A DNA stretch of 64,000 nt from Aureimonas sp. AU12 (GTDB lineage: Bacteria; Pseudomonadota; Alphaproteobacteria; Rhizobiales; Rhizobiaceae), in contig NZ_BBWH01000004.1 of NCBI RefSeq assembly GCF_001463705.1, positions 124,001 through 188,000 on the forward strand. Reading direction: 5' to 3'. The notes beneath the pieces are model-generated. The model did no database searches. It was not told where the DNA came from and saw only the letters and a program-made list of their open reading frames with translations. Positions 13,156-18,507 of this stretch are shown in pieces. Every line of letters starts with the position of its first letter. Within the stretch, counting starts at the first letter, position 1. The position numbers and the translations under genes were made by a program.

Positions 13156-14277
13156 TCAGCCGAAGCCGGGCGCGTCCACGATGCCGCTTCGGCAGCCGCG
13201 CGGCTGGGTGGCGCCGGCGAGGATCAGCGGTCCGAGGTCGGCATCTTCGCGCAGCGGACCGCGGAGCGAGATGCGGATTTCCTGCAGGAGCCGGCGGCCG
13301 TCGTCGCCCGAAGCGCAGTCGATCAGCACCCGGGCGCCCGCGCCGCGACCGAAGGCGCGGTCGAACGCCGCGCGCACGGCATCGGCCTGCAGGTCCTCGC
13401 CCACGGCCGCCTCGAACACGCGCCGCACGTCGGATCGGTTGAGCGCGTCGAGAAGGCGGATCGAATCGCGGAAGTAGCGCTCCTCGCCGCCGCCGTGGCA
13501 GGTGCCGTGCGACCACCACTCGTGCCGGTCGAGCCCGGAGGCGACGCCCGGCATCGCCAGATCCAGCGCCCGGCGCGTCGCGACCGTCAGCTCGATCGCC
13601 GGCAGGCGCATCCAGTCGCCCCGCTCATCGGTCTCGCGGATGCGGGCGGCGACGCCGCAATACTCGCGTCCGCGCGGCTGTGGCCAGAGCCCGTGCAGCG
13701 AGAAGCCGCCGCTGGCCACGCCGCCCGACCGGCAATCGCGCGAGCGGGGTCGAATTTCGCAGAAGGCGGGATGCCAACTGGCCGCGAGGATGAAGTCGCC
13801 GGAGGCTGCCTCGTCCTCGGCGCCGGCGGATGATGCGACACGATCCGTGGTTCTCGCAGGCGCTTCCGCCGGCAACTGAGGCTGAACCGAGGCCGACGAC
13901 GATCCGTCGCCGACGCGCCCGCATCCGTAGGGGACCCAGCGGCGGTCCGGCTCGGCACCGGGCACGCGGATCAGGTAGTGGCTGCCGGGAACGGCGTTGC
14001 GGCCGAGAAGATCGTAGGAGCGCCCGGGCTCCGTGACGATGCGGCCGGAATTGTCCTCGGACCGGATCGAGGGCGTCGCGAAGCAACTCGCCTCCGCCGT
14101 GAAGCTGCCGCTCATCGGCACCTGCGCGGCGGCGGCGCCCGGCATCAGCGCCGCGAGCATCGCGGCCATTGCCGCGAGCGCACTTCGCCGCGGCGGCGTC
14201 CCCGCACCGCCGGCACCCGCCACTTCGGCACGTCCGCCGATTGCGATTGCGCGACAGCGCCCCATTTGATGCGTCAT
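13156..14277 (-). CDS. Secreted ribonuclease, T2 family
   Basis: 373 residues. A long N-terminus ends in a signal peptide (RRSALAAMAAMLAALMPGAAAA, cleavage near residue 51). Next is a Cys-containing module of about 70 residues (EASCFATPSIRSEDNSGRI ... WVPYGCG), then the RNase T2 domain. Both catalytic segments are intact: CAS1 FSLHGLWPQ (His about 195) and CAS2 HEWWSHGTCHG (His 252, Glu 253, His 257). It is expected to degrade RNA in the periplasm or outside the cell. The ATG at 14277 has GGAGAG directly upstream; a GTG at 14223 would give a more normal 33-residue signal peptide. It is divergent from the hydrolase gene, with only 26 bp between the starts. Confidence 0.93.
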   Translation of the reverse strand: MTHQMGRCRAIAIGGRAEVAGAGGAGTPPRRSALAAMAAMLAALMPGAAAAQVPMSGSFTAEASCFATPSIRSEDNSGRIVTEPGRSYDLLGRNAVPGSHYLIRVPGAEPDRRWVPYGCGRVGDGSSSASVQPQLPAEAPARTTDRVASSAGAEDEAASGDFILAASWHPAFCEIRPRSRDCRSGGVASGGFSLHGLWPQPRGREYCGVAARIRETDERGDWMRLPAIELTVATRRALDLAMPGVASGLDRHEWWSHGTCHGGGEERYFRDSIRLLDALNRSDVRRVFEAAVGEDLQADAVRAAFDRAFGRGAGARVLIDCASGDDGRRLLQEIRISLRGPLREDADLGPLILAGATQPRGCRSGIVDAPGFG

Positions 14278-14303
14278 CCACTCTCCAGAGCGCCGAAACG
14301 ACA

Positions 14304-15263
14304 TTGCCCGAGCGTCCTTTTCTTCTCGACAGCCCGACCGGCGCCGCCATCAATCTGTATCGCACACGCCCGCTCGGCGAGGTGCGCGGCGTTCTTCTCG
14401 TGCTGCACGGACTGGCCGAGCATGCCGGCCGCTACGGCCGCCTCGCCCTCGAGATGGCGGCGCGCGGCTTTGCCGTCTACGCCCCCGACCATCGCGGGCA
14501 CGGCTCCACCACCGCCATCGACGCCCCGATGCGACGTTTCGCATCGAAGGCCGGACCGGCCAAGCTTCTGCGCGACATCCATGCCGTGCGTGCACGCGCC
14601 GAGGCCGATCATCCCGGCAAGCCGGTCTTCGTGCTCGGCCACTCGATGGGCGGCCATCTCGCCATGAACTACGGGCGAAAGCACGGCGAAGGGCTGGCCG
14701 GGCTTCTCGTCTGGAACGCCAGCTTCGAGGCCGGCTGGCAGGAGCGGCTCGGCCGCGTGGCGCTTCGCGCGGAAAAGGCGCTGAAGGGATCCGACGTCGC
14801 AAGCGCGCTCTTTGCCCGCGCGACGTTCGAGGCCTGGGGCCGGGCGATCGAGCCACGGCGCACGATGGCGGACTGGCTCAGCCATGACGAGCGCGCCGTG
14901 GACCGCTACAATGCCGATCCGCTCTGCGGCTGGACGCCGACGATCTCGATGGTGGAAGACCTCTTCGCCCTGATCGAGGATGCCCGCTTGCATTCCGGCC
15001 TCGCCGACCTGCCCCGGCGCCTACCCATTCACTGCCTCGGCGGCACGCAGGATCCGGCGACGCAAGGCGGTCAGGCGGTGCGCCGGCTGGCTGCCCGACT
15101 GGAGGAGGCCGGCTCGCTCGATGTTCGATGTCGCATCGTCGAGGGCGCCCGTCACGAGACGCTGAACGAAGTGGAGCCGATGCGCCAGGAGGCGGTGGAC
15201 GAACTCCTCGACTTCCTGGAACATCACTCCGTCGTGGCACCCAAGCCGATCGGCGCGCCGTAA
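14304..15263 (+). CDS. Alpha/beta hydrolase, monoacylglycerol lipase/lysophospholipase type
   Basis: About 319 residues of the serine aminopeptidase S33/Hydrolase_4 type. It has LVLHGLAEHAGRYGRLALEM (oxyanion region), APDHRGHGST, the nucleophile elbow VLGHSMGGHLA (Ser about 114), an acid in GGTQDPAT and the catalytic His in GARHETLNE. It likely cleaves lysophospholipids or monoglycerides. No ATG is available near the conserved N-terminus, so a TTG at 14304 is the best start. The alternative TTG at 14169 would overlap the divergent RNase gene and encode Arg/His-rich sequence unlike the family. Confidence 0.85.
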   Translation: MPERPFLLDSPTGAAINLYRTRPLGEVRGVLLVLHGLAEHAGRYGRLALEMAARGFAVYAPDHRGHGSTTAIDAPMRRFASKAGPAKLLRDIHAVRARAEADHPGKPVFVLGHSMGGHLAMNYGRKHGEGLAGLLVWNASFEAGWQERLGRVALRAEKALKGSDVASALFARATFEAWGRAIEPRRTMADWLSHDERAVDRYNADPLCGWTPTISMVEDLFALIEDARLHSGLADLPRRLPIHCLGGTQDPATQGGQAVRRLAARLEEAGSLDVRCRIVEGARHETLNEVEPMRQEAVDELLDFLEHHSVVAPKPIGAP

Positions 15264-15284: not shown

Positions 15285-16136
15285 TCAACCCTGCTTTGCA
15301 TTGGGCGCGGCGGCGACCAGCCGGAAGGTTTCCAACTCGTCGCGCGTCAGCACATAGAGCTCGTCGGCGGGCGTCTGCATCGCCTTGATCCAGACCTGCG
15401 GATCGACGCCCATGTCGACGAGCAGCTGCTGGCACTCAGCCGTGGTCGCCTGGATGTCGGCGATCGAGCGCCCGAGGTCGCGGAGTGGACCACCCGTCCC
15501 CGCGTCGACCGCATAGACCTGATGTACGCCGACCCAGGCATCCTCTCCGGCCGACCGTGCGACCCCGCCGGAGAAAAGAAGCGGGCAGGCCGAGGCGCAG
15601 TAGCCGTCGGCCGGCACCGCCGTCTCGATCCCGCGTTCGCGCACGAGCCGCGCCATCGCCAGCGCATCCCGCACCGAGCCGCCGGGCGAATGCAGCACGA
15701 GAACGCCTGCACCCTTGCCCTCGCCGTCGAGAAAACGGGTGAGATCGTCGGCGCTGCCGGGATCGATCCGCCCCACCGCCGAAACGGTGCGCTCATCCGC
15801 CCGCACGAAGCGCATGGGCCGTGCCAATGCATCGTCCGGGAGCGGGCTCTCGAAGCCGGGAATGGCCGGCTCGCCCCGGTTCGGCGCGACGGGAACGGCA
15901 CGCGGCAGGTAGGGCCGCACCTGATCGCCGGGCACCGGCCGCGACAGCGGCATCGGCTCGGTCCGGCGCATGCGCGAGCGATCGCCCTCGCCCTGCGTGG
16001 CGCGCTGGATGTCGGTGGCGAGGATCGTGCCCGCCAGACCGACGACGCCGAGGAAGACCGCGCGCAGCATCGCGCCGTCGGGAATGGCCAGCAGCCGCCG
16101 CTCGAACCAGCCGGGCGTCGCATGGACGTCGCTCAC
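15285..16136 (-). CDS. Membrane-anchored ClpP/crotonase-fold protease-like protein
   Basis: About 283 residues. One hydrophobic helix (about residues 23-41, LRAVFLGVVGLAGTILAT) is followed by a Pro/Arg-rich linker and a ClpP-like domain. That domain shows SPGGSVRDALAMARLVRERGIETAVPADGYCASACPLLFSGG, with the putative nucleophile Ser (about 182) in YCASACPL and the catalytic His in WVGVHQVY (about 205). This matches periplasmic ClpP-fold proteins of the COG3904 type rather than cytosolic ClpP. The start is a GTG at 16136, 4 bp after the stop of the membrane protein gene upstream. That implies coupled translation and a shared function. Confidence 0.75.
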   Translation of the reverse strand: MSDVHATPGWFERRLLAIPDGAMLRAVFLGVVGLAGTILATDIQRATQGEGDRSRMRRTEPMPLSRPVPGDQVRPYLPRAVPVAPNRGEPAIPGFESPLPDDALARPMRFVRADERTVSAVGRIDPGSADDLTRFLDGEGKGAGVLVLHSPGGSVRDALAMARLVRERGIETAVPADGYCASACPLLFSGGVARSAGEDAWVGVHQVYAVDAGTGGPLRDLGRSIADIQATTAECQQLLVDMGVDPQVWIKAMQTPADELYVLTRDELETFRLVAAAPNAKQG

Positions 16137-16140
16137 CGCG

Positions 16141-17433
16141 TCAGGACCGCACGGTCTTGGGATAGGCGGCCGGGCCGGGATCGTTCTGCTGAACGATCCC
16201 GTCGTCCTCGACCACCAACCGCGTCGGCGCCGCGCCGATCTCGCTCTCGGTGACGAGGCGGCGCTGGAGGCGGATCGCACGCATCATGTCGAGCGCGCTC
16301 ATGTCGCCGATCTCGCTGTCCTCGTCGCTCTCTTCGCGCCGGATCTGGTCCTGCACGATGCAGAGGATGAAGACGAGCACGGCCGGCATCAGGTCGATCG
16401 AGATCGCCCCGGCCCAGGACGGCAGGAAGTCTCGGGCATACATGACCACGGCTTCCGGCGCCGAGAGCGGCGTGAAGCGCACGGTCTCGACGCGCGGGCG
16501 ATCGAGGATCGAGTCGGCCGCAGCCGCCAGTGCGAGGCTCTGCTGGCGCACGGCGGTCTCGACCTGGCCCACCACGGCCGACTGCCGGCCCTGAAGCGCC
16601 GCGTCGGCGCCATCGGCGGCCGGCGCGATGAAGGTGCGGCCGAGGTCTTCGGCGGCGCGTTTGACGGCCGGCGCGACGGACGTCTGCTGCAGCGAGCCGA
16701 TGATGCCCGCCAGTTCCGTCGCCTGCGTGGCATAATCGGTGGAGCGCGGCTTGACGCTGCCGTCGGCGGCGACCAGTCGGCGCATCTCGCCGAGCCGTTC
16801 GCCGCCGTCCTTGAACAGGGCGCTGACATCGTCGCGCGAGGTCTCGATCTCGGTCTGCAGGCCGGACAGCTGCGTCGACATCTGCGACAGGAGCTGCACC
16901 ACGGTGCCCGAGCCCGACGTGCCGGTCAGCGCGCCCGACGAGCGCTCCTCGTCCGCCAGCCGGGCGAAGCGCTGCGAGGCCAGCTGGATGTCGGGCAGCA
17001 GGCTTTGGGCGGCCAGCGCGTTCTCGTGCGCCTCGTTCAGCTTGCCCTGATAGGCCTCGGTGGTCACCGACATATGCTGCTCGAGCGCCGCCGCGCCGGC
17101 CAGCGCCGCGGCGTTCAGCCAAGCCGACATCGCCATGATCATCGCTGCGCCGAGCGCCATGGCGACGTAGAGCATCCGCCGCCCGGCGGGCCGGCGCACA
17201 TGCGGCATGATCCGCATCAGGTAGGTCCAGAAGGCGTAGATGCCGACCGAGACCGAGACGGAGTAGATCACCGCGCCGAAGAAAACGGTGGAGGCATCGC
17301 CATCGAGAAGCTCGCGGACCCCGAGATAGGTGAAGACGCCGCTGGCCGTCGCGAGGATCGCGAGGGTCATTCGGGTCATCAGTTCGAGCCGCGCGATCTG
17401 GCCGCGCAGCGTGTAGGAATGCGATGCGGCCAT
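16141..17433 (-). CDS. Conserved four-helix membrane protein with a large helical loop, unknown function
   Basis: About 430 residues. Three membrane helices lie near the N-terminus (about residues 22-40, 50-78, 88-118) and one near the C-terminus (WAGAISIDLMPAVLVFILCIVQ). Between helices 3 and 4 is a domain of about 230 residues, rich in Ala, Gln, Glu and Ser, that looks helical or coiled-coil (LSQMSTQLSGLQTEIETSRDDVSALF). A charged cytoplasmic tail follows. I recognise no enzyme motif. The tight linkage to the ClpP-fold gene suggests that this protein recruits or controls the protease at the membrane. The ATG at 17433 gives MAASHSYTLRGQIARLELMTRM before helix 1. Confidence 0.75.
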   Translation of the reverse strand: MAASHSYTLRGQIARLELMTRMTLAILATASGVFTYLGVRELLDGDASTVFFGAVIYSVSVSVGIYAFWTYLMRIMPHVRRPAGRRMLYVAMALGAAMIMAMSAWLNAAALAGAAALEQHMSVTTEAYQGKLNEAHENALAAQSLLPDIQLASQRFARLADEERSSGALTGTSGSGTVVQLLSQMSTQLSGLQTEIETSRDDVSALFKDGGERLGEMRRLVAADGSVKPRSTDYATQATELAGIIGSLQQTSVAPAVKRAAEDLGRTFIAPAADGADAALQGRQSAVVGQVETAVRQQSLALAAAADSILDRPRVETVRFTPLSAPEAVVMYARDFLPSWAGAISIDLMPAVLVFILCIVQDQIRREESDEDSEIGDMSALDMMRAIRLQRRLVTESEIGAAPTRLVVEDDGIVQQNDPGPAAYPKTVRS

Positions 17434-17790: not shown

Positions 17791-18507
17791 CTACTCCGTC
17801 GCGTAGATCAGATCCGAGCCGAGATGGCAGCGGGCGCGGCGCAGTTCGAGCGGGCGATTCTGGTAGGAGCAGATGATGCGCGACAGCTTGAGCACCACAG
17901 CATCGCCCTTCAACCGGAAGGTGCGCTTGTCGTCGGCCGTGGCAACCTCTACCGCGACCTTCTCGAACTTCTGCGTGGCGAGATCCTGGCCCGTCCACCG
18001 GGCGGAGGCGACGCTTTCGAGATCGACCTGCGACATCTGACGCACGCTCGCATCGACCCGCAGATACACGTCTTCGATCATGAACAGGCGCCCGAGATGG
18101 GTCCGGCGGCGTTCGAAACGGAGAACCGGGGTCCGTGCGTTGACTTGCAGTTCCGCCGTGACGTCGGGATCGGCGACGCCGAGCGTGACGTTGGCGATCT
18201 CGACCTCGCCGGAGATCCGGTTGCCGGCCTGATCCCGAATGTTGGAGAAACGGCTCCGCATCTTCGAGCCCTCGAAATCGGCGACGAGGGTTCCCTTTCC
18301 CTGGTGACGCTCGAGCAGCTTGTGCTCGGTCAGGATGTCGAAGGCCTTGCGCACCGTGCCGAGACTGATGCCGAGCGAACGCGCGATCTCGGCCTCGTTC
18401 TCGATCGGCTGGCCGGGCGCCCAGGTCCGCTGCACGATGCGGGCGATGAACTCGTCCGCGACCTGCTGATACAGGGGTCGGGTGTTGAACGGCTTGGCAA
18501 GCGACAT
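17791..18507 (-). CDS. GntR-family transcriptional regulator, HutC subfamily (UTRA domain)
   Basis: 238 residues. Residues about 8-75 form the GntR winged helix (QQVADEFIARIVQRTWAPGQPIENEAEIARSL, then LGTVRKAFDILTEHKLLERHQGKGTLV). Residues about 95-235 are the UTRA ligand domain (LRFERRRTHLGRLFMIEDVYLR, RIICSYQNRPLELRRARCHLGSDLIYATE). HutC-type regulators sense small molecules such as urocanate, amino sugars or phosphonates. No transporter or catabolic operon adjoins it, since both neighbours belong to other units, so the ligand cannot be guessed. A strong inverted repeat upstream (18551-18584) suggests autoregulation. Confidence 0.9.
   Translation of the reverse strand: MSLAKPFNTRPLYQQVADEFIARIVQRTWAPGQPIENEAEIARSLGISLGTVRKAFDILTEHKLLERHQGKGTLVADFEGSKMRSRFSNIRDQAGNRISGEVEIANVTLGVADPDVTAELQVNARTPVLRFERRRTHLGRLFMIEDVYLRVDASVRQMSQVDLESVASARWTGQDLATQKFEKVAVEVATADDKRTFRLKGDAVVLKLSRIICSYQNRPLELRRARCHLGSDLIYATE

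Follow-up and report, generated by a model that had tools for sequence, protein, structure and literature searches.

The nearest known arrangement to the locus described here is that of the NfeD1b-type protease STOPP and stomatin (PH1510 and PH1511), where a ClpP-type fold is likewise carried on a membrane protein and the gene for a membrane partner adjoins. According to the available part of PMC3795559, 1510-N, the ClpP-type membrane protease of this system, uses a Ser-Lys dyad and cleaves stomatin, that is, the product of its neighbour gene. On the minus strand of the window, by which we mean the whole 64,000-nucleotide stretch of Aureimonas sp. AU12 DNA that was analysed, two genes that look like a single unit encode a membrane protein of no named family (P2) and a candidate ClpP-fold membrane protease (P1). 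A sequence-only reading of this DNA had placed P1 4 bp after P2, and the open reading frame coordinates (Table 1) confirm both spacing and order.

The locus differs from STOPP in several respects. Whereas NfeD1b/STOPP has C-terminal membrane helices and an NfeD domain, P1 has one helix and ends with its ClpP domain, and the window P1 gave no NfeD match in Pfam at E<=10. 1510-N works with a Ser-Lys dyad; P1 has an invariant His205 at the ClpP position, and its chemistry would differ. The STOPP partner is a stomatin/SPFH protein, while the model of P2 is all-helical and P2 shows no SPFH match in Pfam at E<=10. A distant likeness is nevertheless visible: 6m4b (1510-N) is among the Foldseek matches of P1 (E 5.1e-06), and Pfam NfeD1b_N is matched by one of 37 P1 relatives (E 0.00078). 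P1 is not a member of the STOPP family. With canonical ClpP (S14) it has the fold and the Ser/His alignment in common, but it carries a membrane anchor and lacks both an Asp at the third position and an adjacent Clp ATPase. An SppA/SohB profile is absent among the Pfam matches of window proteins. The ClpP-related phage head maturation proteases provide the best NCBIfam match of P1 (NF045542, 31 versus a cut-off of 120 bits) and several matches in PHROGs. We considered and rejected P1 as a phage or defence-system gene: head-protease scores are far under the cut-off, the annotated regions inspected show no phage head genes next to the pair, and a PADLOC search with P1 returned nothing. What we describe belongs to an established type, a candidate ClpP-fold protease in the membrane with an operon partner; new are the partner family and the non-canonical site. 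As far as our searches show, P1 and P2 have not previously been described as a pair, and no paper among the matches listed concerns it by title.

Table 1. Features of the P2-P1 locus (positions refer to the window).
Feature	Position	Strand	Remarks
P2 gene	16141-17433	-	ATG start, 430 aa; four-helix membrane protein, no named family
P1 gene	15285-16136	-	GTG start, 283 aa; candidate membrane-anchored ClpP-fold serine protease
P1 transmembrane helix	16011-16079	-	residues ~20-42
P1 ClpP-fold domain	15285-15818	-	residues ~107-283
P1 Ser182 codon	15591-15593	-	aligned with ClpP nucleophile; 123/123 rows
P1 His205 codon	15522-15524	-	aligned with ClpP base; 123/123 rows
P1 C-A-S-x-C motif	15585-15599	-	Cys180 and Cys184 either side of Ser182; 123/123 rows
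P2 transmembrane helices 1-3	17098-17379	-	residues ~19-43, 50-71, 86-112
P2 helical domain	16414-17097	-	residues ~113-340; glycine-rich motif G167..G171..G174-x-G176
P2 transmembrane helix 4	16336-16413	-	residues ~341-366
Alpha/beta hydrolase gene	stop at 15263		convergent with the pair, from below
GntR-type regulator gene	17791-18507	-	upstream of the pair, same strand

Fold, active site and architecture

In the AlphaFold2 model of P1 (37 relatives), a single hydrophobic N-terminal helix spans residues 20-57; the domain is confident (mean pLDDT of the model 83.9) and the linker poorly predicted, with its lowest values at residues 58-83. Fold searches return ClpP (Foldseek E 5.7e-07; best VIA-align match Z 15.0, rmsd 3.0, 158 aligned). 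By sequence profile the window P1 misses the gathering score of Pfam PF00574 (18.9 versus 20.2 bits), and 23 of the 37 relatives match this family at E<=0.01. The sole PF00574 match of the genome at E<=0.001 is its canonical ClpP, a protein separate from P1.

When the profile of P1 is aligned with this canonical ClpP using hhalign, Ser182 and His205 fall on the ClpP Ser and His, a correspondence that phmmer reproduces. The ClpP catalytic Asp, which we take to be the residue before H-F-M in the genome's canonical ClpP (by E. coli ClpP), falls on Leu260 in the hhalign alignment, and this column holds L 104, I 15, M 3 and V 1 times in an alignment of 123 P1/P2 pair rows (122 distinct). P1 would therefore have to rely for catalysis on a dyad or on some other residue. 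The earlier description of a one-helix membrane protein with an intact-looking ClpP-type Ser/His site consequently fits both model and alignment, while the third triad residue is missing from its usual position, so that the site should not be called a "ClpP triad". Ten residues are invariant in 123/123 rows: Asp42, Ser150, Gly152, Gly153, Cys180, Ser182, Cys184, His205, Gln229 and Thr255. Cys180 and Cys184 might possibly form a disulfide, and assembly into a tetradecamer with a Clp ATPase is unlikely given the membrane anchor.

Lys and Arg residues around the helix sum to 125 before and 81 after it across 38 sequences (one incomplete), and the window P1, with two before and five after, runs opposite to this summed bias. 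Keeping in mind that the charge bias is weak, and contrary in the window P1, the P1 domain is probably periplasmic. The annotation of Phaeobacter calls the product of the P1 gene a Clp protease subunit. Weak P1-like stretches also occur on 130 Pseudomonas plasmid records, some of which have two such places; among the matches listed these stretches show 26-35% identity over 46-79% of the query.

For P2, the same reading had pointed to a helical insertion of ~230 residues, and such a segment is there: three hydrophobic stretches precede it and a fourth follows. The P2 model is all helical with a pLDDT of only 76.1, so that the fold is uncertain. Searches with P2 against Pfam, NCBIfam, PHROGs and PADLOC gave nothing significant (best Pfam E 0.021, PADLOC E 0.064), nor did the fold give any Foldseek row against the PDB at E<=0.001 (best E 3.6e-03). 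We set aside VIA-align rows of up to Z 14.1, which are unrelated helical proteins in a range that is uninformative for helical models, as well as matches of P2 relatives to coiled-coil families (ALIX in 6/34, best E 1.5e-4), which we attribute to composition. Conservation is 0.64-0.78 in the loop versus 0.78-0.84 in the helices, and low (0.41) in the net negative C-tail. The helical domain is most likely located in the periplasm, although the topology signal is weak and the net negative C-tail speaks against this side.

Pairing of the two genes across genomes

Among 101 genomes of the same family, where P1 was counted at E<1e-30, 38 have both genes, four P1 only, one P2 only and 58 neither (P1 matches 42, P2 matches 39). 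A further 21 genomes, including the one with P2 only (G039), have weaker P1-like matches, which we treated as paralogs. The two genes are adjacent on one contig in 37 of the 38 genomes that have both; in the remaining genome (G086) they are on two contigs, each gene beside a contig end. In 34/34 measured loci they lie on the same strand with a gap of -14 to +60 bp. Of 86 loci taken from named genomes and plasmids, some of them in genomes of the 101-genome set, 84 have P1 after P2, and the two exceptions (L120 and L138) are both ended by contig ends. Across 76 non-redundant loci, with gene starts guided by profile, gaps range from -32 to +152 bp and the strand is always the same. Wherever the P2 match is strong (E<1e-120), P1 is present (21/21 loci, seven of the genomes being already counted elsewhere). 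The two genes are conserved together within the family and also outside it. Of the two results that the sequence-only reading had named as refuting, a lack of joint conservation and Ser/His positions off the catalytic ones, neither came about, the latter by sequence alignment.

How far does the pair reach? At least 582 of 591 candidate stretches are P2 relatives. The best 80 of these 582 are mostly Hyphomicrobiales by title; since these loci are the best-scoring ones, the set leans to close relatives. Among the same best 80 of at least 582, the copy in Aureimonas pseudogalii shares 89% identity with the window P2, and six other Aureimonas records have copies at 84%. Plasmid records with P2 number 139, mainly from Sinorhizobium (69) and Phaeobacter (58). 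A broader P2 profile finds 21/398 genomes of a phylum sample, the window's own included and all of the same class, and 12/385 genomes within the class; a narrower one finds 8/289 genomes of the class and 2/17 in the family of one further genome (G115). The pair is widespread but patchy, and many of its bearers are soil and marine species.

P1 and P2 distances correlate (r 0.89), as shared ancestry alone would also have them do. The flanking genes change: in Aureimonas they are a hydrolase and GntR, in Sinorhizobium meliloti a cyclase and response regulators, and elsewhere aminotransferase, succinate dehydrogenase-type iron-sulphur protein, ABC1-type and flavoprotein genes. Because neighbours differ by lineage, we did not use them to read the pair's function. 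Near the window pair there is also a ribonuclease T2 family gene (13156-14304, minus strand, Pfam E 1.1e-12). A promoter scan at the window pair recognised none, and the single terminator-like site there is no better than shuffle expectation.

Genomes with one gene only argue against strict mutual dependence. Four have P1 but no P2 match, and no P2 lies within about 6 kb of it (G008, G015, G036 and G070; loci L161 to L164); in all four P1 proteins Ser182, His205 and both cysteines are retained. With active-site residues kept in the absence of P2 in 4/42 P1 genomes, P2 is not absolutely required. These four share similar surroundings: all have a gene of succinate dehydrogenase flavoprotein type and three have one of the aconitase family (identified by Pfam for two of each gene, the remainder by reading). 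P2 stands alone in G039 (L165:5513-6940), between a peroxiredoxin gene and rimM, with the S16 ribosomal protein gene beyond rimM. We had also considered Phe28 of P1 as a contact to P2, starting from Phe in 101/109 pairs and A, I, A and L in the P1-only proteins. This was downgraded to a hint, as 14/123 rows are not Phe (11 Leu, two Tyr, one Ile), and weakened further by the similar neighbourhood of the P1-only genomes, perhaps the outcome of one loss.

Distant P2 relatives and the Sinorhizobium meliloti ortholog

Nine distant P2 relatives were examined (L156-L160 and L204-L207, with L206 a 22-bit match only). Across 14 aligned sequences, the invariant columns of P2-type proteins include S31, G38, W69, E163, G167, G171, G174, G176, W340 and D347. 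No P1-like gene stands beside P2 in L156-L160, nor within a flank of about 1.5 kb at L192-L196 and L199-L202. At L159:1191-3381 the next gene overlaps the stop of the P2-like gene by eight bases. Its product combines a single strong hydrophobic stretch with a proline-rich linker and the sequence HEIGH...ELEAD, which we take to be a zinc-peptidase signature (HExxH, ExxxD); against Pfam M48 it scores 17.8 bits, under the cut-off of 20.3. This partner occurs in 1/36 genomes of its family, the source genome itself, and has partial matches in five plasmid records, so that it amounts to a single locus.

In three further loci (L160:3243-7157, L204:2562-6334 and L205:2696-6135) a small protein without a Pfam match is encoded next to the P2-like gene. 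It has one hydrophobic stretch in L160 and L204 and only a weak one in L205; those of L160 and L205 are related (E 5e-08). These three loci and L156 also have a gene for a conjugation coupling protein near the P2-like gene. Of the other neighbours, that of L158 is many-helix by reading and that of L207 secreted-looking, and L156 and L157 show nothing clear. In a search with a distant P2, all 40 matches listed are from Phaeobacter, and the one compared (NZ_CP010589) is the Phaeobacter P2 gene; a second distant query gave no match in plasmids. With small or one-helix envelope proteins next to it in 4/9 loci, there is a hint that P2-type proteins generally pair with proteins of this sort. It may be that P2 serves more generally as a platform, since distant relatives do without P1 and one overlaps a gene with a zinc-peptidase motif. 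A bolder version, to which we would give little more than tentative credence, makes P2 the family that founds a platform in the inner membrane, on which effectors of the envelope would be interchangeable: a ClpP-fold serine protease with a non-canonical site in Hyphomicrobiales and Rhodobacterales, a one-helix protein with the zinc-peptidase motif in one relative, and a small protein in three, near conjugation coupling genes. If true, this platform would be an ATP-independent way to build regulated envelope proteases.

On pSymB of S. meliloti strain R28 the pair is followed by potassium channel, inositol phosphatase and iron transporter genes. DUF3365, response regulator and adenylate cyclase genes stand directly before it on the same strand (L144:2414-10068). 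The available part of PMC12542648 gives SMb20362 as a phosphatase and SMb20363 as an iron-import ATPase; from these identities and the gene order, P1 should be SMb20360 and P2 SMb20359. The excerpted text of PMC3462710 describes SMb20360 as a 243-aa protein of the Clp-protease superfamily, whose GUS fusion is active in nodules and inactive in free-living cells and whose mutant has normal symbiosis, the gene being dispensable there; second-hand via the same text, a tagged mutant was "highly competitive" under salt and detergent stress. That paper, in the part available, handles SMb20360 as a single ORF, whereas here it would pair with SMb20359; the latter, our presumed P2, has no occurrence in the main text of PMC3462710 or in the literature searched. 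Searches for SMb20361 and for COG3904 together with "periplasmic" found no literature. The sequence-only reading, which named no described function for such a pair, is nearly right inasmuch as none is assigned, but overlooks the mutant and expression data for this P1 ortholog, identified by gene order only (PMC3462710, in part).

Candidate mechanism and its meaning

We favour a reading, at a probability of about one half, in which P1 and P2 form a two-protein inner-membrane complex, with P1 a predicted ATP-independent, probably periplasmic serine protease that P2 holds or regulates. P1 would be tethered by its one helix, with the ClpP-fold domain on the same side as the helical domain of P2, and would cut envelope proteins with Ser182 and His205, needing neither ATP nor an unfoldase. 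P2 might localise P1, present substrates, or sense a signal that switches P1 on. The earlier proposal of a dedicated protease/adaptor pair draws support from the joint conservation of the two genes; a strict need of P2 finds none in the four of 42 genomes that lack it, the usual Asp is missing, and we infer the adaptor role rather than observe it.

Imagine instead that P2 were the substrate: P1 would cut it in the loop or near a helix and so toggle a function of P2's own, as sensor, scaffold or channel. Cleavage of stomatin by STOPP 1510-N is a precedent (PMC3795559, in part). Such a role would suit the higher conservation of P2 (mean column identity 59%, versus 41% for P1) and its survival alone in one genome. 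However, no cleavage site in P2 is known, P1 is kept alone in four genomes, and the other neighbours of distant P2 relatives show that a P2-type protein need not go with a ClpP-type enzyme; we consider this rather improbable. A binding protein, or some other hydrolase on a ClpP/crotonase-type fold that forms a structural or sensing complex with P2, would explain why the ClpP catalytic Asp is not conserved in P1 and why the window P1 scores under the Pfam cut-off, and ClpP/crotonase folds do host non-proteolytic enzymes. Yet none of the 123 rows departs from Ser182, His205 and the S-x-G-G loop, which 4/4 P1-only proteins keep as well; this is more than binding by itself would call for, and we regard a non-proteolytic P1 as unlikely. 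Plain co-transcription, where two envelope genes have a common promoter and are inherited together without any physical link, would suit the genomes that have only one of the two genes (5/43 genomes having either). Given that pairing persists with changed flanks in Hyphomicrobiales, Rhodobacterales and plasmids, and that both proteins are membrane-bound, it strikes us as very improbable.

The steady pairing of P1 and P2 suggests a putative protein-cutting device of the bacterial envelope. Because most sampled genomes are without the pair, its role is probably conditional, in envelope stress or host adaptation. Envelope proteolysis in Alphaproteobacteria bears on symbiosis and stress responses, and the pair is common to rhizobia, Aureimonas and roseobacters. 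Should the two proteins act jointly, the nodule-expressed S. meliloti ORF would acquire a partner gene, and with it a mechanism open to testing; the ClpP fold would come to include a form anchored in the membrane, whose active site differs and whose partner family is new.
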